Below, one piece after another: positions 1,134 through 36,000 of a DNA stretch of 64,000 nucleotides; positions within the stretch are counted from its first letter, which is position 1, and every line of letters starts with the position of its first letter. The DNA lies in assembly GCA_016192705.1 (NCBI GenBank), contig JACPTQ010000022.1:1-64000 (forward strand). Direction: 5' to 3'. The position numbers were made by a program, and so were the translations under genes. The notes beneath the pieces were generated by a model. It made no database searches, was not told the DNA's origin, and worked only from the letters and a program-made list of their open reading frames with translations. Source of the stretch: Deltaproteobacteria bacterium (GTDB lineage: Bacteria; Myxococcota; JACPTQ01).

Positions 1134-4100
1134 CTATGGGAACTCGACAACCGTCACGGGACTCGTGACCGGCGTCTCCGTGTGGCCCGCGCCAACCTGC
1201 CCCTTGTGGTTGTAACCCCAGCACTTCGTTTCGCCACCCGACAAGATGGCGCACGTCGTGTAGCCGCCGCCGCCGAACTTCAGCGCCTTCAGCCCACCCG
1301 CTGCGGTGATCGCCGTCAGCACGCGGTCCGCCGAGTTCCCATTGCCGACATTCCCCTCGCTGTTGTAGCCCCAGCACTTGAGCGTCCCGTCGACAATCGC
1401 CGCGCACCCGTGGAAACTCCCCAGGTGAAGCGATTTCGCCTCGTTGTCACCAATTCCTTCGACCAGAACGGGCGCCGAACTGTTCGCGGTCGACGCGCGG
1501 CCGAGGTTGTTGTACGTCCCTTCGCCCCAGCACTTCACACGCCCATTGCCCACAATCGCGCACGTGAATTTCGACCCGGCCGCGATCTCCGTCGCCGAGA
1601 GACCAACGACGCGCGTCGCCTGGAGTTTCGAATTCGTCGTCCCATCGCCGATCTGCCCGCTGTCGTTCAGCCCCCAGCACTTTGTCGCGCCTTCGCCGTC
1701 GAGAACACACGCGTGGTAATGCCCCATGGCGAGCGACCGTGCCCCCGCGACACCCGAAACAGCGACCGGAATCGCGCTCGTGTTACCGTAAGTTCCGTTC
1801 CCGAGCGTCCCGTGCGTGTTGTCCCCCCAGCACTTCGCCGTCCCATCCGCGATGAGCGCGCACGTCGACAGATGCCCGGCGCCAACGGCGATCGCGTTCA
1901 CAAGCCCCGCAACCTCGCGTGGCGTCGAGCTCTGGTTCGTCGTCCCATCGCCGAGTTGCCCGCGATCGTTCGCGCCCCAGCAGAAAACCTTGCCGGCCTC
2001 CGCCGTTAGCGCGCACGTGTGGTCGACGCCAACCGCGATCCCCAACGCACTCGGGAGTCCCGCGACCGCCTTCGGCAAGCTCGATGTCTCCTTCGTTCCA
2101 TCGCCGAGCTGTCCAACCGAATTGTCGCCCCAACATTTCACCTTGCCGCTCGACATCACGCTGCACGTGTGCGCCTTTTCGTAACCGCCGCTCGCGATCT
2201 GAATCGGGCTCTCGATGCCGATGGGGCCACGCGTCGCGTTCGGGCGGTTGTACGTCGTCGAAAACTGGCCGTCCCAAAGGTTTCCGTAATTGCTCCGCCC
2301 CCACCCGCGCGCCGTGCCGTCCGAAAGCACCGCTATCGTTCGATCCCAACCCGCCATCACGCCCCGCACCGCCTTGAGGTCCACAACCGGGTAACGCGTG
2401 GCGATCGCTTTCGATGACTGAACGTCTCCGCGCTGCCCGACGCTGTTGTCGCCCCAACACGTCGCTTCGCCAGTCGCCAAAACCGCGCAGCTGTGCGACA
2501 GCCCCGCCGAAATCGACGTCGCGCCCCGCGTAATCGCCACACGCGGGTCATGGTGCGACCATGTGGTTGTCGCTTGGCCGGTCTGTCCGGAATAGTTATA
2601 GCCCCAGCAGTAAACCGCGCCGCTCGCTGTCAGCCCGCACGTGTGCCCATTGCCCGCGGCGACCGAAACAAAGTCCCGCGGCCACGACACCTCAACCGGT
2701 TTGACCTTTGTGTCGCGAGGCCAGTTTGTTTGCGGGTCGCGTGACTTCGGATCGACGCCGACCTGCCCCGAGCTGTTCGAGCCCCAACATTTCACGATAC
2801 CATTTGACTGCACGCCACACGCGTGGGCGCCGCCCGCCGAGACCGCAACCATCGGCAGGTACTGATTTGTAATTCGCTGGGGCGTCTTCATATCCTCAGA
2901 GCCCCAAGTCCCCAGCTCACCGCTGTCGTTGCTTCCCCAACAGGTCACATCGCCTGAAACCCGAAGCGCGCAGGTGAAGTTCCATGACGCCGTGATCGCG
3001 ACAATGTCCGTCGCGACGGTCGATAGGGTCGCGCCCATCGGCTTGTCCTTCACGAACGACGGCGTCTTTCGATCTTCAAACGAGTCATCGCCGACTTGGC
3101 CGCGACCATTCTTCCCCCAACAGGCCGCTCGGCCATCTGAAAGCACCGCACACGAATGGTCCGAGCCGACAGCGATATCCACTGCGGTCGATATTCCAGA
3201 AACCGCGACGCCGTCATAAAAGGTCAAAGTCGACCCGTTGCCAAGCTGACCCGACATTCCAAAGCCGACACATCGGATCGTGCCGTCGGCGAGAAGCGCA
3301 CATGAATGCTGCTGGCTTGCGGCAACTTTGACGACCGCGCTCGCCCCCCCGGTTCGCGCGCTCACCTCGCCTGTATTGGCATCGCGATTCCCGGCGAGAT
3401 CGCGCGCGCGCACCGTGAAGAAGTACCGCGTGTTCGCGTCGAGATTCGAAATCGTTGTAGGAGCCGTGGCCACGGACGTCGCGACGAAGCTCGCCGCGCA
3501 CGAGCCGCGCGTCTTCGACACGCAGATGTCGTACGAGATCGAATTCTGCGGCGTCACGGTGTCGGTTGCGAGTTCCCACGTGAGCGCGATCTGGTTCGTC
3601 GTGTTGGGCACGGACGCCGCGGCAATCTTGCTGAGATCGAGGCTCGGCGCCTGGCTGTCTTCGGTGTATGTCACTTGCGAACAGACCGATCTGTTTCCAG
3701 CCGCGTCGACGATTTGAACAAAAAATGTCGTCTGCGAGTTGTCCGCTATAACGCCGGCCGGGATCTTGAGTTCATACCAGTCCAGAATTGCAGGACCCGC
3801 CTCTCGCCGAATGAGCGTGCCACCACATGAACCTGTATAAACGGAAACCGTTGAGCCGCCTTCCACGTAAGCCCAAAGGATCGGCTCATTGTAGTTGGCG
3901 CCGGCGCGCGGGTCCTGACCGCGTCGATAATTGAACTGCAGGGACAGCGGCAAAAACGCGAGGCTGTCCTCGACATACGTCCCCGCCGACGCGCATGCAC
4001 CCGCGTTTCCGGCCGCGTCGATCGCGCGCACCGAGAAGGTGTTCGTCGTGTTATCGCCAACGGAGAGCGTAAGTCCGGTTGAAAACTCCGCGACCGGCTT

Positions 4101-7100: not shown

Positions 7101-9428
7101 CGGATAGTTGTTGTTCGCGGGTGACGACGGGTCGGAGATTAAATCCGTGGGTGCCTCGGGCGCGCGATCGTCGTGAAGGTATGAAACAGGCGCGGCCGAG
7201 CACGGCCCGAGGTTTCCCGCGCGATCTTTGGCTCGCACGGAAAACGTCTGTGAATCGTTTGGTCGTGCATCGACTTCGATGCCGAGCGCGGCAAACTCTT
7301 CCGCCGATCCGCTGGCGACGAACGCCCCCGAGCAATCCGATGACGCGAAGATAAGCGCCGTCGAACCCTGCTCCGCGTTCCCGATGATTCGCGGCTTCGC
7401 GTCGATCGACGGCGAACGCGGCGATGTTGTGAGGCTCGTCGGAGCGAGCGGCGCGATGCCGTCCTCTGTAAACGACAACCCGGCCGAACAGGCCGATTCG
7501 TTCGCGCCGTCGAACGTTTTTGCATAAAACGTCGTCGTGCGGTTTTCTTCGACCGTGACCTCGGCGCCGGTCGACGCGAAGATCGCGGCCGCAATCGTCG
7601 AGAGCGGTGTCAAGCAGTCGGGGCTCGTGTAGAGCGCAATCGTCGACGCGCCGGGCGCGGTGCCGACGAGGCGAATCGTGTTCGGCGAATCGAGGTTCGC
7701 GGGCGACGCGGGCATTGAACGAGCGATCGTCGGGACTTCGGGCGCGATCGAATCTTCGACGTAAACGAGGCTCGCGCAATCGGACGCGTTACCGGCCGTG
7801 TCGCGCGCACGCACGAAGATTTCGGTGACCGAGTTGTCGGCGATGACGTTCGTGGGGATCTGAATCCCCGTCGATGAGAACACTTCGGGGCCTCCACTCG
7901 CGACAAGCGTATCCCCACAGGCCCCTGTGAACAGTTCGACCAGCCTCGCGCCGGGCGCGGTGCCGACAACGAACGGCCGATTGTGGTTCGCGGGTGATGT
8001 GGGCGACGTGGAAAGACCAGTCGGCGTCGCGGGCGGCGTCGAGTCTTCGGTGTAAATGAAAGCCGCGGAGCAGTCGGAAACATTGCCGAGGAGATCGGTC
8101 GCGCGCGCGTAAAACGCCGTCGCCGTGTCGTTTTCGACCTGCACTTCAATCCCGGGGCCCGTAAACGTCGCGGCGCTGTCGGATGCAACGGGGCTTCCCG
8201 CGCAATCGTCGGTTGTGAAGATGTCAACTTGCGCGGTCGCTTCAGCTGTGCCGATAAGGCGCGGCGCATTTTCGTTCGCGGGTGATTCGACCGATGCGCG
8301 CGCGATTTGCGGCGTCGGCGTCGCGTTGTCCGCGAAGTAGGTGAGCCCACTCGCGCACGGCGACACGTTCCCCGCGCGATCGACGGCGTTCACTGAGAGC
8401 GCCGTGACCGCGTTGTTCGCGACGGCGATGCCGATTCCCGCCGTCCCGTAGAGCGCAGCCGAACCGGTCGCGGTCGGCGCCCCCGCGCACGTCGAATTCG
8501 CGAAGACGTTGACCTTCGCGTCGGCTTCCGCGGTTCCCTTCACTTTCGGCGATGTCGATTTGCCGGGCGATTCCGGTGTCGTGCTCACGTTCGACGGCTT
8601 TGCGGGCGCGATCGAGTCTTCGATATACGTGATGCTCGTCGTCGAGCACGGCGAAACGTTTCCGAACGCATCGGTCGCGGTCGCGTAAAACGTCGACGTT
8701 GAGTTGTCGGCGACCGTAACCGCAATGCCGTCGGTCGCGAGCTCGGCGCCCGTTCCTTGGCCAACCACATCCGACGCGCAGTCGGCCGTCGCGTAGATCC
8801 GCACCGTCACGTCGGCGAGCGTCTGTCCGCGCACGCGTGGCGCGTTTTGGTTCGCGGGCGAAGCGGGCGACGTCGCCGTCACGACCGGCGCCGCCATCGT
8901 TCCCGCGCACGAAACGCCCGGTGTGCAGGCCACCTGGATCGGCACGCGCGCCGCGACTCCCTTGACGAGCGTGATCGCATCGCCGCCCGCGGTCACATCG
9001 GCGCTCGCACTCGCTTCGCGCGCCCCTTCGAGGAGAATCGTCGCGCGCACCGTGAGCGGAAGATCGGCGCCCCAATTCCCGTGAAACTTAAAGTCAAAGC
9101 GCCGCCCCGTGAACGGGTTCGTCGCGAACGTCACGACGAATTCCATATCGGGATCGGCGTCGGCGTTTTTGACCTGCGCCGTAAATCGATACGCGCCAAC
9201 GGTGTACTGCGCTTCGTTGCTCGCGACGAGTGGCAACGCCGCACCGTTCGCGCCGTCGATGACGAGGCGAAGCCCCGTGACGAGGCTTGTGTTGAAGTCA
9301 TCCGCGAGCGTAACGCCGACGCGCAACTCGCCTTCGCCCTGCGGCACGGCTTGGCAGCCGAGGACCGCGAGCGCGAGCGCAAGAATTCGCGTCACGCTGA
9401 ACCGGACGTTATTTATTCTATGTCGCAT
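1134..9428 (-). CDS. Giant surface lipoprotein: shared N-domain, 18 Ig-like repeats, FN3, 14 RCC1 blades
   Basis: About 2,764 residues. The N-terminus has a signal peptide ending in the lipobox LAVLGC, so it should be exported and lipid-anchored. Residues about 30-183 form a domain also found (twice) in the divergent neighbour. Residues about 184-1925 hold 18 tandem Ig-like repeats (pattern SPxSPANxNxP, GTAEAG, then DxAGN.S.C, Y.EDS..P), each with two conserved Cys. A fibronectin-III-like domain follows (about 1925-2030), then 14 RCC1-type blades (about 2034-2765) with the pattern C-A-L...G...CWG-N..GQ-LG-DG. Fourteen blades would make two seven-bladed propellers. GAGGAGG (9436-9442) is best spaced for ATG 9428, although an in-frame GTG at 9431 is possible. 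Likely role (inference): adhesion or cell-surface recognition. Confidence 0.9.
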   Translation of the reverse strand: MRHRINNVRFSVTRILALALAVLGCQAVPQGEGELRVGVTLADDFNTSLVTGLRLVIDGANGAALPLVASNEAQYTVGAYRFTAQVKNADADPDMEFVVTFATNPFTGRRFDFKFHGNWGADLPLTVRATILLEGAREASASADVTAGGDAITLVKGVAARVPIQVACTPGVSCAGTMAAPVVTATSPASPANQNAPRVRGQTLADVTVRIYATADCASDVVGQGTGAELATDGIAVTVADNSTSTFYATATDAFGNVSPCSTTSITYIEDSIAPAKPSNVSTTPESPGKSTSPKVKGTAEADAKVNVFANSTCAGAPTATGSAALYGTAGIGIAVANNAVTALSVNAVDRAGNVSPCASGLTYFADNATPTPQIARASVESPANENAPRLIGTAEATAQVDIFTTDDCAGSPVASDSAATFTGPGIEVQVENDTATAFYARATDLLGNVSDCSAAFIYTEDSTPPATPTGLSTSPTSPANHNRPFVVGTAPGARLVELFTGACGDTLVASGGPEVFSSTGIQIPTNVIADNSVTEIFVRARDTAGNASDCASLVYVEDSIAPEVPTIARSMPASPANLDSPNTIRLVGTAPGASTIALYTSPDCLTPLSTIAAAIFASTGAEVTVEENRTTTFYAKTFDGANESACSAGLSFTEDGIAPLAPTSLTTSPRSPSIDAKPRIIGNAEQGSTALIFASSDCSGAFVASGSAEEFAALGIEVDARPNDSQTFSVRAKDRAGNLGPCSAAPVSYLHDDRAPEAPTDLISDPSSPANNNYPRIKGNAEPGAEIRVYATGDCTGDVWAAGNATEFAAAGLLVNRAMADDSTTRFSARAIDGAGNASRCSSATASYVEDSTAPAAVTALKSSPVSPSNEQNPLISGAGAESDGDVEIFANATCAGTRLAKGPAVEFNAKGIKVAVAENSTAWYYVRAVDRAGNFGPCSAGIEYTHNGYRPEPPKVASTNPASPANLDVLKTGGKIRVTGTSDKATTVSIYTGTGCDGEPAATGTREEFEGAGIALSVKSDHETKIFVRASNGPNQSDCGAGPSFVEDRTPPDPPSILGTSPASPNKSPTIFVRGIAEARSRVDLFANDGCAGAPVVSGASSVFANPGLSLTNLLEGLTKFTVRATDEAGNVSRCSAIAAFVRDATPPVAPSSFSPLSTVTSNSTPLVKITAEPKSTIRLFTNSACAGTPLKEGVMEAFSTIGFLVTVPLNTKTNFYAQVVDEAGNSSACAWMTSYTHDSLPPAAPTGLKVTPVGPANNPWPTVSGAVEADILRVFFFATAGCSGNYASYAYLDGQRTFSVAVPVERNKTTTIRARTQDRAGNSSPCSTESVSFTEDSAAPVAPTGLWLTPSPANNNAPVVKGTAEAGSTVQIFVNSACGGTPAASKTAAEFTSGVALSVVDNSTSHVYVRSVDVAGNASGCAYAGAYTEDSTAPIAPTNLYSTPYSPSNNDTPKIKSYANGEAGTVDLFTNASCSGTSVASGSTETFVSTGIPLKVAANATTNIYARVTDRAGNVGACSLPYAYTMDSTPPGAVKFNALYSPRNHNAPVLFGSAAAADSDATIKIYDTAGCSGVVVGSTSANYFANYGVIVSVKDDSTTTFYGRAVDRAGNDGPCTTTGVTYVEDSTPPSPPTLTAVSPASPSSSTTPTVSGTAEANAYVVIYSAAGCTTGSSMNGVRAGTDGKFSTALTVGANKATTFYATTTDAAQNVSACSSAGPTYIHDSIAPAAPTGLSISPTSPANNNNPVLKGTAEAGSKVQLFYNSTCYGFPAFTKPVAEFSTGLTLSVGDNTTNTFSVRAIDAAGNAGACASAGTYVEDSLAFLPLSLQFNYRRGQDPRAGANYNEPILWAYVEGGSTVSVYTGSCGGTLIRREAGPAILDWYELKIPAGVIADNSQTTFFVQIVDAAGNRSVCSQVTYTEDSQAPSLDLSKIAAASVPNTTNQIALTWELATDTVTPQNSISYDICVSKTRGSCAASFVATSVATAPTTISNLDANTRYFFTVRARDLAGNRDANTGEVSARTGGASAVVKVAASQQHSCALLADGTIRCVGFGMSGQLGNGSTLTFYDGVAVSGISTAVDIAVGSDHSCAVLSDGRAACWGKNGRGQVGDDSFEDRKTPSFVKDKPMGATLSTVATDIVAITASWNFTCALRVSGDVTCWGSNDSGELGTWGSEDMKTPQRITNQYLPMVAVSAGGAHACGVQSNGIVKCWGSNSSGQVGVDPKSRDPQTNWPRDTKVKPVEVSWPRDFVSVAAGNGHTCGLTASGAVYCWGYNYSGQTGQATTTWSHHDPRVAITRGATSISAGLSHSCAVLATGEATCWGDNSVGQRGDVQSSKAIATRYPVVDLKAVRGVMAGWDRTIAVLSDGTARGWGRSNYGNLWDGQFSTTYNRPNATRGPIGIESPIQIASGGYEKAHTCSVMSSGKVKCWGDNSVGQLGDGTKETSSLPKAVAGLPSALGIAVGVDHTCALTAEAGKVFCWGANDRGQLGDGTTNQSSTPREVAGLVNAIAVGAGHLSTCALIADGTAKCWGDNTHGTLGNGTYGNTSAIPVAVSGVAGARSLAMGHYHACVLDGEGATKCWGLNDSGQIGDGTTNSKLQATRVVGLSATEIAAGSKFTCAIVGNGRVKCWGEGTYNNLGRASTANSSAPVLVEGIGDNEAKSLHLGSFHGCAAIVDGTLKCWGYNSEGNVGNGNSADRVLTAITAAGGLKALKFGGGGYTTCAILSGGETKCWGYNHKGQVGAGHTETPVTSPVTVVEFP

Positions 9429-9431
9429 CAC

Positions 9432-9695
9432 GTTGCCTCCTCATAAGATGTGGCGGGTCTTTGAGCTGTCACGCCCTCTAGAAAGCAATCCGCTCGCCGT
9501 TTCGCTTGCGTCGAAAGACTTGGAATTCGCCTCATCGCTGTAGCGTGCGAAGCCACAGCCGCGATCGATGAAGTTACACCTTCCAATGGCGTCCCGACTC
9601 AACCCCGCGAGGCAACAGCTAAATTGAATGGCGAGCGAATTGCTCTTCAGTTAATCCGCGCCCGTGGTGGACGCACCGAACGAGGAGGGACTTCC
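9432..9695. promoter_or_regulatory. Divergent intergenic region between two giant lipoprotein genes
   Basis: This 264-base gap must hold the promoters for both divergent giant lipoprotein genes. Both genes have strong, near-identical ribosome-binding sites: GAGGAGG at 9436-9442 (minus strand) and GAGGAGG at 9682-9688 (plus strand). I see no convincing -35/-10 pair or sigma-54 site on either strand. The shared N-terminal domain and shared intergenic region suggest co-regulation, but this is inference. Confidence 0.5.
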
Positions 9696-12600
9696 GTGGC
9701 GAACAAAACCGGCCGACTCGGCAAATGTGCGGGGCGACTCCCGCTCGTCGCGCTGGCGCTTCTCGCCTGCGTCACAAAAAGAGTCGACTCATCGAACACC
9801 GTCACCGTCACGTTCAATCTCCCCGCTGGGATGAGCCCCGCGACGGTTTCAAAAATCGGTCGCGTCGAGATTTACTTGGACGAACCCGGAGGCGCGAGTC
9901 TTTTCGGCGCGGAGACGCAACTTGCACTCGGTACAACGCAAGAGGGCGTCCCGTACGAAGCGCAATTCGCGGACATCGATGGCGACAAGAAAAATGAGTT
10001 CTATCTCCGCTTTCGGCAAAACCCGTTTGGCCTCGCGCGCACATGGACGATCAGTTTCGCGGGCGGTGGGCAAACGGCGTCGACGTTCCTGATTCGCGGG
10101 CGCATCTGGAGCGGCGATGGCGTGGCGCTCCTTGCAACCGCCGTCGCGACGGCCGACCGAAACGGCGAAGCGATCCAGTTTGGACCAACCGAGCGCGCCG
10201 TCGCGCTCGACTTCGGGTGCGAGCCAACCGTGAGTTGTTTGTGGTCGGCCGACGCGGGACAGACGACCGACGCCGTTGGGACCCTGGTCGCCAATTTCGC
10301 TTTACCGCCCGACATGAGCCAACTCGTTGCGAGCCAGTTGAACTACATGGACCTTTACTTCGACGAGCCGGAAACGACGGCACTCTTCTCGGCGGACTCG
10401 GTCGCGGAGACGGGCTATACCACCGACGGAATCGCGTACGAGCGACAAGTGACCGATGTCGATGGCGACGGCCGACGCGAGTACTACGTGCGATTGCTCT
10501 CGAACCCCTTCGCGGTTTCAGCGAACTGGCAAAGTTGGTCGATGAACTTCACGGGAAGCGCGTCGGTCGGTGTTTTCTTGGTGCGCGCGCGGCTTTGGTA
10601 CGGGACGCCGAACACGCTCATCGCGACGGTCACCGCATCGGTTGATTCGACGGGCGGACCGATCCAATTTGGGTTTGACCAGCGAACAGTGACATTACCG
10701 TTCACGTGTGCGTCGCCGATTCTGTGCGGCGGTTCGAGTTCGGGCGACGCAGGCGCGTCGAGCGACGGTGGCGCGCCGGTCGACGCCGGGAGTCTCAGCG
10801 ATGCCGGTGCCCCCGTCTGCAACCTCGACAGCGAGTGTGGGATTGGAAAGTACTGCCGTCTCACCGAGCCGCGCGGCTGTGCGCCATGCTCCGCGACCGA
10901 GACGGCCCATTGCGGGACAGCGTCGTCGTCGCCCGGCTGCGTCCCGTGCTCGGGCGCGACCCCCGCCTGCATCGGTGGCGTTTGTGGCTGCACCGAACAC
11001 GCGGCGTGCGGCCAAGGTCAGTTCTGTGAAGCGGTGCCGCCCTTCGATGCGGGCTCGGGCGGTGGCGCTGAAGAGGCCACGGGGTGCGTCGATGGACCGC
11101 TCGGTTCGATTCTCGGCGTTGTTGCGAGCGGGAGCACCGCCACGGCCGACGCAGGATACAGCGGCAGCTGTGGCGGCGGCGCCGCGCGCGACCGGGCGTT
11201 TGGCTGGGTCGCACCGGCGACCGGACAGTACATCGTCGACACGATCGGCTCGAACTTCGATACGATTCTCACCATGCGCGACGGAGGGTGCGACGGCCCG
11301 CAGATCGCGTGCAACGACGACTTGGCTTACGGCAATACGCGCTCGAAGCTCACGGTGAATCTCTTGGCGGGCCAATCGGTCGGCATCATCGTCGACGGTT
11401 ACTCCAGCGCGTCCGGGAGTTTCGCGCTCAACATCGCGCTCGACGGCGGGTTACCGGACGCGGGACCCGCGGCGCCCGAGATTGGCGCGTGCGCCGCTTG
11501 CTCGGCGACAAATTCACTCCGCTGCGGCAGCGCGACGACCGACGCCGGTTGCAAGACCTGCCTCGGTGAGACGCCCTCGTGCGTGGACGGCGAATGCCGA
11601 TGCACCGCGCACGCGTCGTGCGGTGCCGGCCAGTACTGCACGAACCTCGACGGCGGCGTTTGCGCGTCCTGCTCCTTGACCGATGCGCTTCACTGCGGCA
11701 GCGGATCGGCGCCGGCCGGGTGCAGCGTCTGCACGGGCGTGCAATCAACTTGCGTCAACGGGTCGTGCGCTTGCACATCGCATGAATCGTGCGGCACCGG
11801 GAAGTACTGCACGAACGTTGACGGCGGCGTTTGCGCCTCCTGCTCGTCGACCAACGCGAACTTCTGCGGAACCGGCGCGTCGCCCCCGGGGTGCTCGCAG
11901 TGCGCGAACCCGCTGCCATCGTGCGTGAGCGGCGCTTGCGCTTGCACAAGTCACGCGCAGTGCGGCGTTGGAAAGTACTGCACGAACTTGAGCGGCGGAA
12001 CGTGCGGCGACTGCAACCCATCGTCGGCGCCGATCTGTGGAACAAGCGCGTCGCCAGCCGGCTGCACGCCCTGCTCGGGCGCGACACCCGCCTGCAGCGG
12101 CGGCGCGTGCGTCTGCTCGGGCGAGCGCGAAACCGATTCGTGCTTCGCCGCGGCAAGCCTCGTGTGCGTCGGCGGCGCTTGCTCCGCGTGCACATCGACA
12201 GGGCAATGCCCATCTGGTTACTGCTGCCGTCCGTCGACCGATCGCTGCGAGGAAACGCTCTACTCATGGACCGGTATCGCACCGCCTGGGGTGCGCACCG
12301 GCCACTCGGCCATTTTCGACGCGGCGAACCAACGCATGATCGTTTTCGGCGGTGGCGGTGAGACGGCCAATTTTCAGAACGACGTCTGGTCGCTGTCGCT
12401 CGCGGGTGGGCCAAGCGTGTGGACGCCGCTCGTCACAACCAACGCACCGCCATCGGGTCGCGCGTACCACACAGCGGTTTACGATGCGGCGAACCAACGC
12501 ATGATCGTTTTCGGCGGGCGCAGCAACGCGTCGAGCTATCTCGATGAAACGTGGGCGCTGTCGCTTGCCGCGACTGGCCCGTACACCTGGACGTCCCTCA

Positions 12601-14267
12601 GCGCGGCGTCGATCGCGCGGCGCCATCACAGCGCCATCGTCGACACGGCGAACGGGCGAATGGTGGTGTTCGGCGGCGAGAGCAGCTCGTCGAGCGGAGG
12701 GTGCAACGGCGCGCGGTGCAACGACACGCTCGCGTTCTCATTCTCGTCGAACGCGTGGTCGGCCCTTTCGACGACGGGCACGCCGTCTCCCCGCGCCCGA
12801 CAGAGCGCGGTTTACGACGTAACCTACGCACGGATGGTCGTGTTCGGCGGAGAAACCGCGTCAGCCATCGTGCAAGAGGTGTACGAACTCACTTTGGCGT
12901 CCGGCGTTTGGCGACTGCTGCCGCAAGACGGTACGGCACCGAGCGCGCGTCGCTCGCCGTCGGCCATCTTCGATGCGCCAAGGCAACGCATGATCGTCTT
13001 TGGCGGCGGTTTCAACACCGGCCCCTGGTATTGGAACACGACGTGGGAGCTCACGCTCCCGAATCCAGCAAGCGAACCCGGCACCAAGGCGACCTGGACA
13101 CTGCTCTCACCAGGCGGTGCGCCGGCCGCGCGATACAATTCGAGCGCCATCGTCGACACCGTCAACAACAAGATGGTCGTCTTCGCAGGCATGGGGAGCA
13201 CGGACTACAATGACGCGCACGCGCTCGACCTGCCGACACCATCGTGGACACAGCTCGCGCCGTTGCCCAACACGACGCCGGTCGGACGAGACTCGCACAG
13301 CGCCATCTACGACATCACGAACGGCCGGGTCGTCATATTTGGCGGGGACAGCGAGACAGGGTACCGGAACGACACGTGGGCGCTTGCGATGTCCGCTGAC
13401 GGCGGCGCAAATTGGAGCAACCTACTCCCCGCCGGAACGCCGCCATCCGCCCGAGAAAGACTCAGCGCCATCTTCGACAAGCCCAACGGGCGCATGATCG
13501 TTTTCGGTGGTTACGGCAGCGGCGGCAATACGAACAACACCTACGCACTCAGCCTACCCGACGCCGGAACCGCGACCTGGTCAACGCTCTCGCCATCCGG
13601 CACACTGCCATCCGCGCGAAGCGGTCACACCGCAATCTACGACGACCATGTGAGCCCGCCGCGGATTGTTGTTTTTGGTGGCTACACAGGCGGCTCGCCG
13701 GATCGATCCAACGAAGTGTTCTACCTGTCGCTGCCCGGCGGTACTCCCGCGTGGTCGAAAAAATACCCAACGGGCACCACACCCATCGAACGGGACGCCC
13801 ACACGGCGATCTACGACAGCGCCAATAAGCGCATGATCGTATTCGGTGGGAGCGCTGGAGGCAGCATTGGTCGAAACGACGTCTGGGCGCTTGCTCTGCC
13901 GAACGATTACCCGAGCGAGCCAGCATGGAGCGAAATCTCACCGACCGGAACGAAACCAAATAAGCGATACGGGCAGTCCGCGACGTACGACGCGGTGAAT
14001 CAGCGAATGCTGGTGTTTGGCGGGAAAGACACTGATATTGGCCAAACGACGAACGAGGTTTGGGCGCTGACGCTTCCCGATGCGGGCACTCCAGAGTGGC
14101 AGCAGTTGAGCACGACGGGTGTCGTCCCTGACCGACGATCTTTTTCGACCGCTGTTCTTGAAACGGTCGGCCATCGGCTCGTCGTCTTTGGCGGGTACGG
14201 CCCGCAGCCACCAAGATATTATCGCGCCGACGCGTGGTTCCTTGAGCGCGAGTCGTGCAAGCCGTGA
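9696..14267 (+). CDS. Giant surface lipoprotein: duplicated N-domain, Cys-rich repeats, PPC-like domain, Kelch propellers
   Basis: 1,523 residues from GTG 9696, chosen because GAGGAGG lies 7 bases upstream; a longer frame from 9624 lacks a ribosome-binding site and a signal peptide. The signal peptide ends in the lipobox ALLAC. Two copies of a domain (about 34-185 and 195-350, each with a D.DGD...E[FY]Y.R...NPF motif) match the N-terminus of the divergent neighbour. Five Cys-rich units of about 58 residues (H..CG.G.YC, CG, GC..C, C..G.C.C) span about 375-850, with a beta-rich domain resembling the pre-peptidase C-terminal (PPC) fold at about 468-580. Twelve Kelch motifs (HSAI.D..N.RMIVFGG) fill 855-1520, enough for two six-bladed propellers. 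Probably a surface binding protein; ligand unknown. Confidence 0.9.
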   Translation: MANKTGRLGKCAGRLPLVALALLACVTKRVDSSNTVTVTFNLPAGMSPATVSKIGRVEIYLDEPGGASLFGAETQLALGTTQEGVPYEAQFADIDGDKKNEFYLRFRQNPFGLARTWTISFAGGGQTASTFLIRGRIWSGDGVALLATAVATADRNGEAIQFGPTERAVALDFGCEPTVSCLWSADAGQTTDAVGTLVANFALPPDMSQLVASQLNYMDLYFDEPETTALFSADSVAETGYTTDGIAYERQVTDVDGDGRREYYVRLLSNPFAVSANWQSWSMNFTGSASVGVFLVRARLWYGTPNTLIATVTASVDSTGGPIQFGFDQRTVTLPFTCASPILCGGSSSGDAGASSDGGAPVDAGSLSDAGAPVCNLDSECGIGKYCRLTEPRGCAPCSATETAHCGTASSSPGCVPCSGATPACIGGVCGCTEHAACGQGQFCEAVPPFDAGSGGGAEEATGCVDGPLGSILGVVASGSTATADAGYSGSCGGGAARDRAFGWVAPATGQYIVDTIGSNFDTILTMRDGGCDGPQIACNDDLAYGNTRSKLTVNLLAGQSVGIIVDGYSSASGSFALNIALDGGLPDAGPAAPEIGACAACSATNSLRCGSATTDAGCKTCLGETPSCVDGECRCTAHASCGAGQYCTNLDGGVCASCSLTDALHCGSGSAPAGCSVCTGVQSTCVNGSCACTSHESCGTGKYCTNVDGGVCASCSSTNANFCGTGASPPGCSQCANPLPSCVSGACACTSHAQCGVGKYCTNLSGGTCGDCNPSSAPICGTSASPAGCTPCSGATPACSGGACVCSGERETDSCFAAASLVCVGGACSACTSTGQCPSGYCCRPSTDRCEETLYSWTGIAPPGVRTGHSAIFDAANQRMIVFGGGGETANFQNDVWSLSLAGGPSVWTPLVTTNAPPSGRAYHTAVYDAANQRMIVFGGRSNASSYLDETWALSLAATGPYTWTSLSAASIARRHHSAIVDTANGRMVVFGGESSSSSGGCNGARCNDTLAFSFSSNAWSALSTTGTPSPRARQSAVYDVTYARMVVFGGETASAIVQEVYELTLASGVWRLLPQDGTAPSARRSPSAIFDAPRQRMIVFGGGFNTGPWYWNTTWELTLPNPASEPGTKATWTLLSPGGAPAARYNSSAIVDTVNNKMVVFAGMGSTDYNDAHALDLPTPSWTQLAPLPNTTPVGRDSHSAIYDITNGRVVIFGGDSETGYRNDTWALAMSADGGANWSNLLPAGTPPSARERLSAIFDKPNGRMIVFGGYGSGGNTNNTYALSLPDAGTATWSTLSPSGTLPSARSGHTAIYDDHVSPPRIVVFGGYTGGSPDRSNEVFYLSLPGGTPAWSKKYPTGTTPIERDAHTAIYDSANKRMIVFGGSAGGSIGRNDVWALALPNDYPSEPAWSEISPTGTKPNKRYGQSATYDAVNQRMLVFGGKDTDIGQTTNEVWALTLPDAGTPEWQQLSTTGVVPDRRSFSTAVLETVGHRLVVFGGYGPQPPRYYRADAWFLERESCKP

Positions 14268-14284: not shown

Positions 14285-15085
14285 TCACGGCGGCGAGAGT
14301 CGGTGGCGACCGTCGCGATGCAGGATGAAAAGCGTTGTCGACGCGACGCTAAGTAGCGTGCCGCCGATGAGGAGGCCGCCGCCCGCGCGAAGGCTCGCGT
14401 TGTGGCTATCGACGCCGCCGTTGTAGGCGTCGAGGCTCGCTTTCGATGGCGACGGTGGGTTGAAGTAAAGGACGGCGCCGACGGCGAGGGAGAGCACGCT
14501 CACTCCGAGCGTCACCCACGCCCATTTGCGCGTGGAACGCGGCGGGATGAGCCAGGTAGGTTTCGATGCGAGAATGGACGCGGGTGCAGGGGCGGATGCG
14601 GTTGCGGGCGCGGGTGCGGGTGCGGGAACTTGACGCAAAGGCGCGGAGACGCCGAGGGAAGAGGTCTCATTCCTTGCGTCTTTGCTCCTTTGCGCCTTGG
14701 CGTTAAAAGCTTCTGCGGGTGCGGGCACGGGAGCGGTCACCGGCACCACTTTCTCGCGAATCGCCCGGAAGAAAACCACAACCGCCGGCGGTTCATCGTT
14801 CGGGTCAAGTTCAACGCGCGCATCGGCGCCGAGGGCCCGCCGAAACGCCTCTTCCGCGCCCTTCTTGTCGCCAAGCTCCCAACGCGCAAGCCCCAAGTGT
14901 TTGTAGGCGACGGCCCGCGCTTTCGCCTCCTTAACGCGCGGCGCGGCGGCCGCCAATAACTTCGCAGCTTGCCGCCATTTCCCTTTGTTCGCAAAACCAA
15001 TCCCTTGCTTCACGAGCGTCTCTGGCGTCTTGGCGTCGGCGACACCAGCAAAGATCAACGCCGCGATCGCGACGAGACGAATCAC
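14285..15085 (-). CDS. Secreted/membrane TPR protein downstream of kinase
   Basis: 266 residues starting at GTG 15085, overlapping the kinase stop codon by 4 bases (GTGA), so translation is probably coupled. It has a signal peptide (cleavage near ADA, residue 18), then two TPR-like helical pairs (about 25-100), then a Pro/Ala-rich linker of about 60 residues, then two hydrophobic segments (about 186-206 and 236-256) that should span the membrane. The linker includes a CGCAAAGGCGC-type palindromic repeat read in frame (NAKAQRSKDARNETSS). The layout resembles accessory proteins paired with myxobacterial Ser/Thr kinases. Its role as a partner or substrate of the kinase is inference from position. 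Confidence 0.75.
   Translation of the reverse strand: MIRLVAIAALIFAGVADAKTPETLVKQGIGFANKGKWRQAAKLLAAAAPRVKEAKARAVAYKHLGLARWELGDKKGAEEAFRRALGADARVELDPNDEPPAVVVFFRAIREKVVPVTAPVPAPAEAFNAKAQRSKDARNETSSLGVSAPLRQVPAPAPAPATASAPAPASILASKPTWLIPPRSTRKWAWVTLGVSVLSLAVGAVLYFNPPSPSKASLDAYNGGVDSHNASLRAGGGLLIGGTLLSVASTTLFILHRDGRHRLSPP
14631..14708. repeat. CGCAAAGGCGC palindromic repeat, in-frame copy 1
   Basis: An imperfect palindrome of about 78 bases: GACGCAAAGGCGCGGAGACG on one side and CTTTGCGCCTTGGCGTTAAA on the other. It lies inside the coding linker of the TPR/membrane protein. Related copies lie at 41559-41640 and 46731-46808, also within coding linkers. Confidence 0.75.
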
Positions 15086-16665
15086 GGCGACTTCTCAAGA
15101 TTGATCGAGACACGCTCGGTCGCCCGCGAAACCCGGACCTTCTTCTCAACGGTCACATAACCTTCCTTTTGAACCAACACCCGGTGCACTCCAAGCCGCG
15201 CTCGAAAGACCGCCGCTTTCGATTCCTTACGTGAGCCACCGTCAAGCGAAACATTTGCCCAGCAGGGTCGCGCCGTGTCGACGCATCGCACGTTCACGGT
15301 GAGCTCAGCGAACGGCACGACCGCACGTTGGGGAGCAACTTCCGCCGTACGCGCGCGCGCAGTGGGAGCGGGTGCGGGCGCGGTTGCGGGAGCGGGAGCA
15401 GGTGCGGGCGCGGTTGCGGGTGCGGGTGCGGGAGCGGGAGCGGGCGCGGTAGCCGTAGCGGGTGCGGGAGCCGTAGCGGGTGCGGGTGCGGGAGCAGGAG
15501 CGGATGCGGGAGCGGGTTCAGAAGTACCCTCGGAGCCACTCGCCACTTCAACCGCCTGCGTTCCGCCCGACCGTTCAAACACACCCAGGCCAACGACAAT
15601 CGCCGCCATCGCCGCGGCCGCGACGATCGACAAAAGCGCACCGCGCCGAAACCAGCGCGACCGCGACGCCGTCATCATCTCGCCGTGCGCGAGCGAAGAA
15701 TCGTGCCCGCGCGCCTCAAAATCCCGTCGAAGCACGGCGGTGGACGCCTCAGCGATTCCGAGAGGTGCAACCGGCGCTTCGCCAAGAAGAGCCAACCGCA
15801 TATCGCGGGCCGACTGGAACCGGTCGAACGGCCGCTTCTCAAGCGCCCGAAGCCCTGTTGCCCGCGCCCGCGTAACAGCCTCGGCGCCACCAAGTGCCCC
15901 CGGCCACACCGGCATCTCGCTCACCTGCTTCATGAGCAGCTCGCGCGTCGATGCCCCCTTAAACAGCCGTCCGCCCGTGACCATTTCGTACAGCATGACG
16001 CCAACCGCGTAAATATCGGTCCGCGCATCGGCCGGTTCCCCAAGGACCTGCTCCGGGGCCATGTACGACGGCGTCCCAACCATCATCCCGCTTCGCGTCA
16101 GCGCCGAATCGACCTGCAATTCATCGACGAGCTTTGCCATCCCAAAATCAAGCAGCTTTACGAAATTTGGATTCCCGCCGATCTCCACAAGCATCACGTT
16201 GACGGGCTTCAAGTCGCGGTGAATGATCTTCTGCGCGTGCGCGTGTTCAAGCGCCGAAAGAATCTGGGCTGTAATCGCGACCGCCTCGTCCGTTGAAAGC
16301 GGCGGATCGCGCCGCTGACGGTCAGCAAGCGACGGCCCCTCGACGTACTCCATGACAAGGTAAAGATCGCCGTCGGCCGTTCGCCCATAATCGATCATCG
16401 TCACGATGTTGGGGTGGCTCAGCTTCGAAATCGCCGTCGCCTCGCGTTCGAAGCGCTTTGACATCGCGTCGTCGCTGCTGAAGCTGTTTTGAAGCACCTT
16501 GAGCGCCACGCAACGCCCAACGTTGAGCTGCGTCGCGGCGTAAACCAAACCGATCCCGCCGACACCGATCGTCGATTCGATACGGAACCGATGGTCGATC
16601 ACGTCGCCAACTTTGAACGGTCCGTCCGTTTTGGTCTCGGTCAACCCGCAGCCCCCTGCTCCCAT
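15082..16665 (-). CDS. Membrane Ser/Thr protein kinase with PEGA tail
   Basis: A 527-residue Hanks-type kinase. Visible are the glycine loop GVGGIG (34-39), ATP-binding Lys56 in ALKVL, catalytic HRDLKPVN (149-156), DFG (173-175) and the GTPSYMAPE activation segment, so it should be active. A juxtamembrane segment and one transmembrane helix (about 342-362) follow. A Pro/Ala tract (about 383-436), encoded by hexanucleotide repeats, leads to an extracytoplasmic PEGA-type domain (about 453-527). ATG 16665 has no clear ribosome-binding site; an in-frame TTG at 16644 sits 7 bases after AGGGGG and may be the real start. A perfect hairpin AGGGCTC-TCG-GAGCCCT (16676-16692) lies just upstream. It forms an operon with the TPR/membrane gene. 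The signal is unknown. Confidence 0.92.
   Translation of the reverse strand: MGAGGCGLTETKTDGPFKVGDVIDHRFRIESTIGVGGIGLVYAATQLNVGRCVALKVLQNSFSSDDAMSKRFEREATAISKLSHPNIVTMIDYGRTADGDLYLVMEYVEGPSLADRQRRDPPLSTDEAVAITAQILSALEHAHAQKIIHRDLKPVNVMLVEIGGNPNFVKLLDFGMAKLVDELQVDSALTRSGMMVGTPSYMAPEQVLGEPADARTDIYAVGVMLYEMVTGGRLFKGASTRELLMKQVSEMPVWPGALGGAEAVTRARATGLRALEKRPFDRFQSARDMRLALLGEAPVAPLGIAEASTAVLRRDFEARGHDSSLAHGEMMTASRSRWFRRGALLSIVAAAAMAAIVVGLGVFERSGGTQAVEVASGSEGTSEPAPASAPAPAPAPATAPAPATATAPAPAPAPAPATAPAPAPAPATAPAPAPTARARTAEVAPQRAVVPFAELTVNVRCVDTARPCWANVSLDGGSRKESKAAVFRARLGVHRVLVQKEGYVTVEKKVRVSRATERVSINLEKSP
15361..15515. repeat. Hexanucleotide GCGGGN tract encoding a Pro/Ala linker
   Basis: A long run of GCGGGT/GCGGGA/GCGGGC units, read on the minus strand as alternating Pro and Ala between the kinase membrane helix and its PEGA domain. 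Because the units are multiples of three, length change by slippage would alter linker length without a frameshift. Related tracts occur at 14581-14635, 30068-30130, 47311-47402 and 53674-53780. Confidence 0.85.
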
Positions 16666-21489: not shown

Positions 21490-21540
21490 CCACAGTACTT
21501 GGTGGACCCGCGTGGCTCAAGCGTTTCTGCGCGCAATCCA

Positions 21541-22085
21541 ATCCCCGCTTAAGCGGTTCGTTCGCTCGTGAGCGTGAGGGTCGACAGGAGCCCGCTACGG
21601 CGCGCCGACGTCCTCGGGTCTGATTTGAGACGTGCGATTGATCCGCAGTTTAGAGACAAGCGAAAGCCCGATGGTCCCAGCCGATATCGCGCTGCAGACC
21701 CTGCGGAGGCACGCCTTCGCGGCGCCCCTGCCGACCCTACGCAAATCCGGGCGGACCGCTTTCCGGGGACGTATTCCTTAGGCTTGAGGGCGGTACGAAG
21801 AGTTCACCCGCTGGGTGTCGGCTGACGATCAATCGACCCCCAAAGTCTCCTAACCGCCATTCCAGGAAAACGGCCGGAATCTGATTGGGCGGGCGGGGAT
21901 TGGGCAAGCGGAGGCTCGCATCCGCAGGGGATGAGGTGCCGATGGGGCGTGGAATTGCCGTTCTCATGATGCTTGATTCACTTCGTGCAGACTCACATTT
22001 AACGTCAGCCCCGAGGACTTTTGCGAGCCGGAGCGCGCCCAGACCCCGCCCGCTCCACGCAAATCTTTCCCGTTATCCGAGAATC
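21541..22085. mobile_element. Inverted-repeat (MITE-like) element, copy 1
   Basis: A non-coding element of about 545 bases. The left end is ATCCCCGCTTAAGCGG; the right end, CCGTTATCCGAGAAT, is its degenerate reverse complement. A direct repeat CTGCGCGCA lies just outside both ends (21527-21535 and 22089-22097), as expected of a target-site duplication. Inside, GTCCTCGGGTCTGA in the left half and TCAGCCCCGAGGAC in the right half are inverted, so the two halves can fold back. Related copies are at 30828-31068 and 51521-52155. It fills most of the 669-base gap before the DUF2203 gene, and I see no protein gene in it. Confidence 0.75.
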
Positions 22086-22158
22086 AGGCTGCGCGCACAA
22101 ATGCCTTGCAGAATACTCCCGGCGTGTGCAAAATAGATTTCTCGGTGGGGTGAACACG

Positions 22159-27618: not shown

Positions 27619-27634
27619 CGGTGTCTCCTTTTCA

Positions 27635-27763
27635 GCGGGTTGCTGAAAAACGCCCATCTGCGGCGTTGGCGCGCCGCCGCTCGCTTCCGCGTATATCTGA
27701 ATACAGCGTCAGCTCGCGGCTTTCCGCGCCTGCCTTGCATCTGGACGTTTTTGAGCAACCTGG
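27635..27763. repeat. GGTTGCTGAAAAA palindromic repeat, copy A
   Basis: About 129 bases bounded by GGGTTGCTGAAAAACGCCCA on the left and its near reverse complement, GGACGTTTTTGAGCAACCTG, on the right. It has GC-rich internal palindromic segments and no coding potential. It lies between the CoA-binding gene and the start of the chemoreceptor gene. Copy B at 34353-34554 matches it in inverted orientation. I recall similar intergenic repeats in other deltaproteobacterial genomes, but this is memory, not a search. Confidence 0.75.
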
Positions 27764-27775
27764 GAAATCCACTTG

Positions 27776-29506: not shown

Positions 29507-30811
29507 TCACCATTCGACGTCACGCGGGCCAAGCGCCGCGAGGGTGAGCGGCCGCTGGAAGATGCGCGCAGCAACCTCACGCAGGCGGACCGGGTTGACC
29601 GCGTCAATGCGGGGCTTGAGATCGCGGTAGTCGTCGCTGAGCCCGAGTATTTCGCGGTAAATGAGGCTCTCCGCGTGGAAAATCGGGCTCTCCACGGCGT
29701 CGTCGTGGCCAGCGAGAATGAGCGCCTTTGCTTTGTCGAGCTCGCGCTCTGGCACCGGCTCGGTCGTAAGGCGCGCCAATTCGCGTCGAATGAGTCGCTC
29801 CGCCTCAGCGAAGCGCGCGGGATCGAATCCAGGAATCGCCGCGACGAGGTGCCCTGCGGGACCGAGCGACTCCCACTCGGCAATGACGTCGTAACCGATG
29901 CCGCGATCGTCGCGCAGGAGGCGAAAGAGGCGTGACGACGGGCCGAGACCAAGGACCGCCGAAAGGAGCGCCAGCGCCGACGCGTCTCGCGAGCGGTGCG
30001 ACGGCGTCCGAACGCCGAGCATCAAATAAACTTGCGCCATATCTTCCCAGCGCTCGATGGCTCGTCGCCCGCTCCCGCTACCGCTTCCGCGACCGCTTCC
30101 GCGCCCGCTCCCGCGCCCGCGCCCGCGCCCCCTCCACCTCGCAAACGTCACCCCAATCGCATCATCAAGCTCCGCGCGCTCGCAACTCCCGGCCACCGCG
30201 AGCACAGCGTTCTCCGGCCGATAATGCCGCGCCTTCCACGCCCTCACTTCCGCGACCGTCAACCGCTCGACCACCTCGGGCCGTCCATCGATCGGCCTCG
30301 CGAACGGTGCCTCGCCGAACAGCGCGGGCAAGTAAAGCTGCGTTCGCGCGTAATCATCGGGCGACTCTAGGTTTCCTGTTATCTCCGTCAGCACAACCCC
30401 GCGCTCACGTTCAAATTCGCGCCGGTCAAAGTGATCGTTCACAAGACTCTCGAAAAGAATCGGCATCCCCCGCGTCACGGTCGCGCTTGGCGCCCGCAAC
30501 TCAAACACCGTCGCGACCGTATCGGTAAACGCATTGAGGCTGCCGCCGAGCGCGTCAACACGCCTCGCCATCTCCGCGCAACTCAAGCGGGGCGTCGATT
30601 TGAACGCGAGGTGCTCAATGAAGTGCGAAATCCCACCGAGTCGTCGCGGCTCGCTCGCCGACCCAACGCGAACGCCCAGCATAACCACGGTTTTCTTCGC
30701 GGCCGGGAGCGGCGCCAACAATAGCGTGAGCCCATTCGGTAAGAGCGCTCGCTCTACCCCTTTGAGCCGACGATCGGGCGCCCACGCGATTTCGCCGTTC
30801 CGCTTTGTCAT
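29507..30811 (-). CDS. M16 family zinc peptidase (insulinase/MPP-like)
   Basis: 434 residues from ATG 30811, chosen for GAAGGAT upstream; the open frame continues to 30961, but those codons lie inside a repeat element. The zinc site is the inverted HxxEH, HFIEH at residues 63-67, and a further conserved Glu follows in VVLTEI. The second lobe has SSRLFRLLRDDRGIGYDV, the family's substrate-binding signature. Between the lobes a Gly/Arg/Ser tract of about 18 residues is encoded by a hexanucleotide repeat (30068-30130). Members degrade peptides or process proteins. No signal peptide is evident. Next on the strand is the receiver-histidine kinase gene. Confidence 0.9.
   Translation of the reverse strand: MTKRNGEIAWAPDRRLKGVERALLPNGLTLLLAPLPAAKKTVVMLGVRVGSASEPRRLGGISHFIEHLAFKSTPRLSCAEMARRVDALGGSLNAFTDTVATVFELRAPSATVTRGMPILFESLVNDHFDRREFERERGVVLTEITGNLESPDDYARTQLYLPALFGEAPFARPIDGRPEVVERLTVAEVRAWKARHYRPENAVLAVAGSCERAELDDAIGVTFARWRGRGRGRGSGRGSGRGSGSGSGRRAIERWEDMAQVYLMLGVRTPSHRSRDASALALLSAVLGLGPSSRLFRLLRDDRGIGYDVIAEWESLGPAGHLVAAIPGFDPARFAEAERLIRRELARLTTEPVPERELDKAKALILAGHDDAVESPIFHAESLIYREILGLSDDYRDLKPRIDAVNPVRLREVAARIFQRPLTLAALGPRDVEW
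30068..30130. repeat. Hexanucleotide tract encoding an RGSG linker in the M16 peptidase
   Basis: Units such as CCCGCT, ACCGCT and TCCGCG on the + strand are read on the coding minus strand as Arg-Gly and Ser-Gly pairs. The tract lies between the two lobes of the M16 peptidase. It is the same kind of repeat as in the kinase (15361-15515), but in the opposite orientation, so a Gly-rich rather than a Pro/Ala linker results. Confidence 0.8.
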
Positions 30812-30827
30812 CGGTATCTTATCCTTC

Positions 30828-31068
30828 ATCCCCGGCGCCGCCGTTCGAGGTAAACGGCCGAGTTCTGATTGGGCGGACGGGGATTGGGCAAGCGGAGGCT
30901 CGCATCCGCAGGGGATGAGGTGCCGATGGGGCGTGGGATTGCCGTTCTCATGATGTTTCATTCATTCTGTGCAGACTCACATTTCATGTCAGACCCGAGG
31001 ACTTTTGCGAGCCGGAGCGAGCCCAAACCCGACCGCCTGACGCTGGTCTTGGCCGCTTAACCGGGGAT
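30828..31068. mobile_element. Inverted-repeat (MITE-like) element, copy 2, internally deleted
   Basis: About 241 bases. The left end ATCCCCGG and the right end CCGCTTAACCGGGGATC are inverted. A 12-base direct repeat CGGTATCTTATC flanks it (30812-30823 and 31071-31082), the strongest sign of insertion in this window. About 185 bases match the right half of copy 1 at roughly nine positions in ten; the left half is missing. The element sits just upstream of the M16 peptidase start and separates it from the divergent oxygenase-like gene. No gene lies in 30824-31070. Confidence 0.78.
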
Positions 31069-31166
31069 CGCGGTATCTTATCTATCGTTCTCGACTCCCG
31101 TTGTCGACGACGCCTCAAATGTTGTAGCATCTTTTAGATCATCTGTACGCGACCGGGAGACGATTT

Positions 31167-34313: not shown

Positions 34314-34352
34314 CCCGATCTGACTACCAGGCTGCTAAAAAAGTCGGTTTTG

Positions 34353-34554
34353 CAGGTTGCTGAAAAATGTCCAGATGCAAGGCAGGCGCGGAAAGCCGCG
34401 ACCGGACGCTGTACTCAGATGTACGCGGAAGGGAGCGGCGACGCGCCAACGCCATCGAGGTGAAGCGACAGGTTTGCGAAGCCGATGGTCGTTTTGCTCG
34501 AATGATATTGGTGTCGCGGCAGTGCCGCGTAGATGGGCGTTTTTCAGCAACCTG
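34353..34554. repeat. GGTTGCTGAAAAA palindromic repeat, copy B
   Basis: Left end CAGGTTGCTGAAAAATGTCC, right end GGGCGTTTTTCAGCAACCTG, so the ends are long inverted repeats. It matches copy A (27635-27763) in inverted orientation but has about 75 extra internal bases, including GCGGCAGTGCCGC. It abuts the stop codon of the GltG-like gene (34555) and sits between two convergent operons, where a folded RNA could terminate both. A shorter GCTGCTAAAAAAGTC just upstream may be a decayed partial copy. Confidence 0.78.
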
Positions 34555-36000
34555 CTACTGCGCGACTTTCTGCGGCGCGAATGATACCGAGTACGTAATC
34601 GTCGCTTCGCCCGCGTCGCCCTTAATTCTAAAGCGCCATCGGCGAACGCTCTTCCGTACGCACGACGCCATCTCGCTATCGTTCACCGTGTCCTCGTCCA
34701 GCCCCTCATCCACGACGCGTCCGCCTTCACCGATCGTAAAGCGAATCACGTATTTCCCGCGGAGGCTTGGGTTTTTCTTGAGCGAACGCTCATAACACGC
34801 CTTGATTTGCCCAAAGTTCGACTTAATCTGCGATCGAATCGTGGCTTGCGCCTCGGGATCGTCGATCGCAACCGTAGGCGCCGCACTCTTCACCTGCGGG
34901 ACCACCGCTTCTTTCGGCCCCTCTTGTGTAACCGCCGTCGTCCGCGCTCGCGTAATCTTCGGAATGTTTTTCCCGGCACTCGCCGATTCCGGTCCATCGT
35001 AACCCGTCGACAGCCGCGGCGTCGTCGAGCCCGTCGCAAACCCCGTCGAAACCTTCCCGGCCCGAGCCAGCGTCCGCTCCAGGTCTTTGTCAACGCGCTC
35101 ACGCAAAGGATCCGCCGTCGTCGCGCCCGTGTTCTCCCCAAAGGCCGAGACCAGCGCCGCCCCCACCTTTGCAACCGCCTTCTCGACCGCCTTCGCCTCA
35201 CGCGCCGAGATTTGCCGCCCCGTGCTCGTCCGCACGGTTGCGGACGGCCGCGTGCTCTCATCGTCCCGCCGTCGCGCCGTCGGACGATCGCGCGGATCCT
35301 CTCGCCGGACTTCGTCTCGCCGCGCAACCTTGGTCGGGTCCGGCGCCTTCTTCTGCTCCATCGCCTTCTTGAGCTCTGTGAGCGCCTTCGTTTCGTTGAC
35401 AAGCTTCGCGAACCGCTCTTCCTGAATCAGATGGGCCGGCTTCTTTTCCATCTCGCTCGCAATGATCAAGAAGCCAAAATGAAAGACGAACGAGCACATG
35501 ATGATTGACGCGAAGATCCAGTCGATCGTTTCCCAAATCCCGCCGCGCGCGAGCTTCGGCAACTGCGGACGCATGGGCGCGGCCGGCGCGGAAACAAATT
35601 GAAAGAGAAACGTGACCTTCCCGACGACGACCTTCCCGCGCGACTTCTCGGACAAACGGAACGACCACAGGTCGCCCTTCTTCTCGGCCAAACTCTCGCG
35701 CCGCAACGTCGCAAAATCGACAACGCGGTCGTTGACCGAAACGCGACCCTCCATCGCGTCCGTAAATAGGAGCACGTAACCGCGGGGCGTCGACTCAAAA
35801 AGCTTGAACGATTTCGGCAACCCCGAACCGGCGAGCGAAAACGTGTTCTTGGTCTCTTCGCCAACCGAAACCGACTCGCGCTTTCGAAAAATGCTTTCGC
35901 CGACAATCTTGCCGGCATCAATCACACCGACGCGAAGGACTTTCGGCTCGCGCCTTTGGGCGTCGCCACTTTCGCCTGCAGTTGCTCCCGTGCCATTCAC
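34555..36000 (-). CDS. GltG-like protein: FHA-like N-domain, membrane helix, AgmX/PglI C-domain
   Basis: 481 residues from GTG 36000, with AGGAGG 7 bases upstream. Residues about 20-125 form a beta-rich, FHA-like cytoplasmic domain (KVLRVGVIDAGKIV...SVNDRVVDF). One transmembrane helix (about 160-182) is followed by a charged, helical periplasmic stretch. The C-terminal domain (about 385-480) has IKSNFGQIKACYERSLKKNP, then GKYVIRFTIGEGGRV and CVRKSVRRWRF: the TonB-like domain of AgmX/GltJ, GltG and PglI. In Myxococcus, GltG spans the inner membrane and links the Agl motor to outer-membrane parts. It is the last gene of the operon. Confidence 0.82.
   Translation of the reverse strand: MNGTGATAGESGDAQRREPKVLRVGVIDAGKIVGESIFRKRESVSVGEETKNTFSLAGSGLPKSFKLFESTPRGYVLLFTDAMEGRVSVNDRVVDFATLRRESLAEKKGDLWSFRLSEKSRGKVVVGKVTFLFQFVSAPAAPMRPQLPKLARGGIWETIDWIFASIIMCSFVFHFGFLIIASEMEKKPAHLIQEERFAKLVNETKALTELKKAMEQKKAPDPTKVARRDEVRREDPRDRPTARRRDDESTRPSATVRTSTGRQISAREAKAVEKAVAKVGAALVSAFGENTGATTADPLRERVDKDLERTLARAGKVSTGFATGSTTPRLSTGYDGPESASAGKNIPKITRARTTAVTQEGPKEAVVPQVKSAAPTVAIDDPEAQATIRSQIKSNFGQIKACYERSLKKNPSLRGKYVIRFTIGEGGRVVDEGLDEDTVNDSEMASCVRKSVRRWRFRIKGDAGEATITYSVSFAPQKVAQ

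Follow-up and report, generated by a model that had tools for sequence, protein, structure and literature searches.

A probable MITE-like family built from paired hairpin modules lies on the promoter side of genes in a Myxococcota genome

Gene-less repeats of bacterial genomes have mostly been described simply as 'intergenic', whereas the placement of the family described here is strongly directional. The closest described systems include Chunjie, a type II MITE of Geobacter uraniireducens with a full length of 235 bp that is present as 38 copies with terminal inverted repeats (TIRs) and direct repeats and as 57 partial copies (review PMC10969869), and the Correia elements (CREE) of Neisseria, which are reported to carry strong promoters (PMC10969869). 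MITEs have TIRs of about 4 to 30 bp, are flanked by direct repeats that arise by target duplication, contain no transposase or other conserved gene, and occur as many intergenic copies per genome; the present family shows each of these traits, with TIRs of about 21 bp. Its commonest full form is 540 to 553 bp (range 107 to 800 bp), compared to a typical MITE size of <500 bp, and it lacks the AT-richness that is usual for MITEs but does not define them: the G+C content of the family is 62.9%, relative to 62.1% for the genome and 59.1% for other intergenic DNA.

The stretch of DNA that we analysed (64,000 nucleotides, referred to as the window) belongs to a genome of 5.2 Mb in 88 contigs. The original prediction had placed a foldback, transposable-like element at 21527-22097, a span that includes both flanking duplications; the element proper, copy 1, occupies 21536-22088, and its features are as follows:

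21527-21535, no strand: left target-site duplication CTGCGCGCA, exact, of the duplication class seen across copies
21536-22088, plus strand: copy 1, full element of 553 bp (module A, spacer, inverted module B)
21536-21556, plus strand: left TIR ATCCAATCCCCGCTTAAGCGG, family consensus CCCYR-ATYCCCGGWTAASSGS
21536-21769, plus strand: module A, imperfect hairpin of about 235 bp, with an internal TIR-like block at 21754-21769
21599-21622, plus strand: module A core hairpin, 5' side, GGCGCGCC GAC GTCCTC GGGTCTG
21695-21715, plus strand: module A core hairpin, 3' side, CAGACCC TGCGGA GGCACGCC
21770-21853, plus strand: conserved spacer joining the modules
21854-22088, minus strand: module B, inverted hairpin of about 235 bp, with an internal TIR-like block at 21859-21874
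21913-21933, minus strand: module B core hairpin, 3' side (minus strand CATCCCC TGCGGA TGCGAGCC)
22006-22029, minus strand: module B core hairpin, 5' side (minus strand GGCTCGCAAAAGTCCTCGGGGCTG)
22069-22088, minus strand: right TIR CCCGTTATCCGAGAATCAGG (reverse complement CCTGATTCTCGGATAACGGG)
22089-22097, no strand: right target-site duplication CTGCGCGCA, exact

The ends, which had been claimed to be inverted, are indeed imperfect inverted repeats of 20 to 21 bp (ATCCAATCCCCGCTTAAGCGG and CCCGTTATCCGAGAATCAGG), and the claimed 9-base target duplication is present on both flanks without a mismatch. The family TIR can also be written CCYYRATYCCCGGWTAASSG, and the end motif occurs three times in the window, compared to 0.21 times in shuffles. 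The inverted internal blocks that had been proposed, GTCCTCGGGTCTGA (21610-21623) and TCAGCCCCGAGGAC (22005-22018), were found to be part of a pair of 45-nt arms that are 73% complementary. A codon-usage gene caller predicted no gene in the interior of copy 1, and no promoter-like site was found in this copy.

Alignment of 30 full copies (566 columns) showed that the full element consists of two hairpin modules of about 235 bp, A and an inverted B, flanking a spacer that is conserved and about 85 bp long. Neither this two-module structure nor the strong promoter-side placement described below was part of the original prediction. Some elements, copy 2 among them, consist of one module flanked by its own duplications, which is evidence that a module can move alone. 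The two further copies in the window are as follows:

30815-30823, no strand: target-site duplication of copy 2 (GATAAGATA on the minus strand)
30824-31073, minus strand: copy 2, 250-bp single-module element (B only) that lies upstream of a divergently oriented M16 peptidase gene
31074-31082, no strand: target-site duplication of copy 2 (GATAAGATA on the minus strand)
51517-52158, plus strand: copy 3, full element with about 90 extra bases inside, the duplication of which is no longer clear

The window also contains very long repeat-rich genes at 1134-9431 (minus strand) and 9624-14267 (plus strand), with coding repeats of about 290 nt and about 165 nt. Arrays of 6-base units (GCGGGT, GGCGTT, CCCGCT, and similar) are scattered across it, at 14552-14653, 15334-15537, 30044-30150, 44140-44307, 44941-45036, 47282-47448, and 53660-53814.

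The size of the family was evaluated by searching the genome with copy 1, which gave 52 matches with 40 of 217 first-look candidates scored, and with the consensus TIR, as the original prediction had proposed; the TIR was found 179 times, whereas the reversed control pattern was found zero times. The stretches that were read, 1.84 Mb chosen around end motifs and not by gene context, contain 150 of these 179 ends and 160 family pieces, 65 of which are at least 500 bp in length, and so the genome total is estimated to be about 190 copies. A further 0.78 Mb that was not selected by ends contained merely six pieces. Matching, locus-specific flanks were present at 53 of 76 facing TIR pairs, in comparison to 0.2% for flanks taken from different copies, and the facing pairs at 222 to 226 bp that lack matching flanks are module borders inside elements rather than element ends. 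With the best end pairing, the duplication is 8 to 9 bp long at 43 of 60 sites; variable duplications of 7 to 16 bp, considered as a sign of a non-DDE mechanism, were set aside because the lengths were mostly 8 to 9 bp after the element ends had been fixed. Compared to DNA farther out, the 8 bp next to the elements are slightly richer in A+T, and they contain no clear target-site motif. Insertion into the -10 box was also rejected, as TANNNT is rarer at the sites than in shuffles.

Element length ranges from 107 to about 800 bp as a result of insertions and deletions, with both ends retained, and the deletion derivatives keep both TIRs and the duplication, including the very short copies L084 and L117. 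Internal length variants in which both ends are kept are the usual mark of non-autonomous elements whose ends serve for recognition. Taken together, these results show that copy 1 is a genuine copy of a mobile element, and the earlier proposal of a gene-less element moved in trans is supported by the locus-specific target duplications of the roughly 190 copies.

The capacity of the whole element to fold back on itself, also proposed originally, was evident when the full element was folded as RNA, as it exceeded shuffles in stability on either strand (z of -4.9 and -5.0). Folded as DNA, the full element had a z of -3.2 relative to shuffles, and a single-module copy was little better than shuffles (z of -0.93). 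The core of each module has the layout stem, GTCCTC, stem, a loop of about 70 to 80 nt, stem, TGCGGA, stem. In 124 distinct modules, which were located by the internal-loop letters such that the stem counts alone serve as a test, the core stem was 90% paired, compared to 36 to 56% when the stem was slid and 82% (maximum 83%) when its partners were shuffled. Doubly changed core-stem cells numbered 144, compared to 69 (maximum 81) in shuffles, where the counts are of sequences and not of independent events, the differences between the A, B, and C stems amounting to a few events. The stem variants are GGCGCGCC/GGCGCGCC in A and GGCTCGCG/CGCGAGCC or GGCTCGCA/TGCGAGCC in B, with the internal-loop letters unchanged, and in a divergent subfamily (L056, L094, and relatives) the stem is GGCTTGCG/CGCAAGCC, again with an unchanged GTCCTC/TGCGGA loop. 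This subfamily (L056:3048-3432, L094:16549-16932, L171:11662-12037, and L122:14565-14894) has the same ends and core loop, another interior, and compensatory stem changes.

A GC-to-AT exchange at columns 68 and 170 is the strongest long-range signal of module B. Covariation over whole modules is weak, with structure pairs averaging above slid pairs in A but not in B, and among the module pairings the core stem alone is convincing as covarying. G-U-type cells (16) and A-C-type cells (25) in the core stem are about equally frequent, and therefore there is no sign of one strand acting as RNA. No match to an Rfam covariance model was found. Template-switch correction of near-palindromes can also yield compensatory changes, although the persistence of the unpaired loop makes it less likely to be their only cause. 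That pairing is retained as the stem letters vary suggests that, here, a TIR-type transposon is recognised as folded DNA.

Columns picked as conserved from half of the copies proved conserved in the remaining half as well, even between close copies (ratio of 0.29 at <6% divergence). Private mutations, however, strike the conserved columns at 50 to 90% of the rate elsewhere: private transitions per opportunity were 0.0049 at conserved columns versus 0.0054 elsewhere, and private transversions were 0.0029 versus 0.0061. Most simply, the core would be required for moving and resident copies would decay under little selection; blocks that serve movement rather than persistence should indeed show near-neutral private mutation of conserved columns. 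Because the core blocks are conserved beyond the needs of a simple MITE and transversions are about halved, resident copies may be under weak selection. Incompatible column pairs increase from 24% at short distance to 48% at long distance, which indicates that copies also exchange sequence. The identity between nearest neighbours has a median of 92% and a maximum of 96.6%, and thus no very recent jump is visible.

The original prediction called for a transposase gene with the same ends, and none was found in the stretches that were read. TIR pairing revealed no gene-bearing version in the 1.84 Mb, where no TIR pair exceeded about 0.8 kb, and no autonomous partner with the same ends was found in the assembly or in 194 genomes of the phylum. 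The seven transposase families DDE_Tnp_1, IS256, IS1595, rve, Y1, IS66, and ISL3, each of which was detected in control genomes, had no match at E 0.01 across the assembly apart from two small contigs (G000:C18 and G000:C59; L068 and L108) that consist wholly of N, in a draft assembly of a kind that may miss multi-copy IS. We therefore rejected a non-autonomous derivative of IS4/IS5/ISAs1 (DDE_Tnp_1), IS256, IS3/IS21/IS30/IS481 (rve), IS1595, IS66, or ISL3, for which there is no matching transposase in the draft assembly. Multi-copy open reading frames in the stretches read, considered as hidden transposases, encode, as judged by eye, only small proteins, some resembling four-helix bundles and the others unrelated. 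The enzyme itself may have been lost, or it may be missing from the assembly.

Small gene pairs that overlap in opposite orientation are repeated in the genome (L087:2736-3501, L069:5779-6562, L039:12527-13394, and others), with six and five members at 60% identity or more, and adjoin GCTCCC-type hexamer repeats; by eye, their proteins resemble four-helix-bundle proteins (23S rRNA intervening-sequence/Avd-like).

In its own genome, the family gave 137 matches to the core pattern and 103 to the end pattern, and neither pattern was found in 194 other genomes of the phylum. A DNA search of 57 relatives, none closer than phylum, gave no match, and no family match was found in viral contigs, plasmids, or phages. 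The core pattern had five single matches in 257 Gb of genomes, which is about chance level and was discounted.

The placement of the family relative to genes was evaluated with the codon-usage gene caller for 78 elements located away from sequence ends. It was found that 42 are in divergent gaps, 31 in tandem gaps, 1 in a convergent gap, and 4 inside predicted open reading frames, whereas 18, 43, and 13 were expected in divergent, tandem, and convergent gaps, respectively, from element-free gap length (chi-square p of about 1e-10). The bias stays at p <1e-6 with gaps of at least 50 or at least 80 bp, or when gaps rather than bases are counted. The median distance was 72 bp to start codons and 8 bp to stop codons, few insertions are <30 bp from a start codon, and all three copies in the window lie between divergent genes.

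A second dispersed palindromic repeat (ends GGTTGCTGAAAAA...) is present in the window at 27634-27774 and 34341-34556, with 14 clear copies in the stretches read. This second family occupies eight convergent, four tandem, and zero divergent gaps, and this opposite placement indicates that the bias is not an artefact of the gene caller. The promoter-side placement is a strong result, and the opposite placement of two repeat families in one genome offers a testable system for supercoiling or promoters that steer insertion, or for a parasite turned insulator.

We conclude that this is very probably a MITE-like family of non-autonomous DNA transposons, with about 190 copies, moved in trans by a candidate DDE-type enzyme. 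The family is new, its two-hairpin structure is unusual, and its upstream placement is striking; its mobile nature is well supported, and the mechanism of targeting is put forward as a hypothesis. A DDE-type transposase acting in trans would recognise the TIRs together with each module's folded core, and copies would have been inserted through a staggered cut; much less certainly, there may be a preference for negatively supercoiled DNA upstream of promoters, with hairpins that would extrude easily. An ordinary dead MITE family, which lost an ordinary IS transposase and whose placement is due solely to selection against copies that land in genes and core promoters, is a possibility of some weight, though not the one we favour; it overlaps with our conclusion, being itself a MITE family, and differs in the cause of placement. 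The missing transposase (for seven families in a draft assembly), the median nearest-neighbour identity of 92%, and the scarcity of insertions within 30 bp of start codons are consistent with it. However, selection that avoids harm should fill convergent gaps most, and these least harmful sites are nearly empty (1 versus about 13 expected), which favours targeting upstream of promoters over selection. One candidate cause of such targeting is negative supercoiling, which is expected to arise between divergent promoters. A more specific form, in which the enzyme belongs outside the seven tested families, senses folded or negatively supercoiled DNA through the hairpin core at each end, and inserts just upstream of promoters, above all divergent ones, is speculative and on present evidence rather doubtful.

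It is similarly unlikely that the element serves the host as a regulatory or topological element, that is, a domesticated repeat, insulator, or supercoil buffer acting between divergent promoters through extruded hairpins. The excess of divergent gaps, the distances to start and stop codons, the core pairing kept across subfamilies, and the opposite placement of the other repeat family would agree with such a role, whereas the rate of private mutation at conserved columns, the highly variable copy length, the lack of a promoter-like site in copy 1, and the target duplications, which show arrival by insertion, argue against it. That the copies are a structured non-coding RNA gene family spread by duplication, an RNA function having been the alternative offered in the original prediction, is very improbable. 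The stable fold (z of about -5 on both strands) and the compensatory core-stem changes are compatible with an RNA, but the inverted core motifs would give any transcript one sense and one antisense copy, wobble cells are not in excess of A-C cells, Rfam gave no match, decay is near-neutral, a single module as DNA barely exceeds shuffles, and TIRs with target duplications would be unexpected.

The MITE-like transposon that we favour resembles several described systems. The REP/BIME sequences moved by RAYT (Y1) transposases are likewise palindromic, intergenic, and present in >100 copies (PMC2817692), whereas the present family has TIRs and target duplications; identity with REP/BIME-RAYT was rejected, as Y1 (PF01797) is absent from the genome. 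Eukaryotic foldback transposons (FB/Galileo/Tetris-like), likened here by description, share long modular inverted arms, mosaic copies, and gene loss, but the present family has a bacterial host and short TIRs with separate hairpin modules. Correia elements duplicate TA, unlike the 8 to 9 bp duplicated here. They share with the family a high copy number and a location mostly just upstream of genes (PMC10969869), but copy 1 is without a promoter-like site. Chunjie and other bacterial type II MITEs, which are likened here by description and not by sequence, share TIRs, direct repeats, the absence of genes, internal length variants, intergenic location, and tens to hundreds of copies, whereas the present family differs from Chunjie in having two hairpin modules in inverted orientation around a conserved spacer, a length of 553 bp, a composition that is not AT-rich, no known autonomous partner, and a strong upstream placement.
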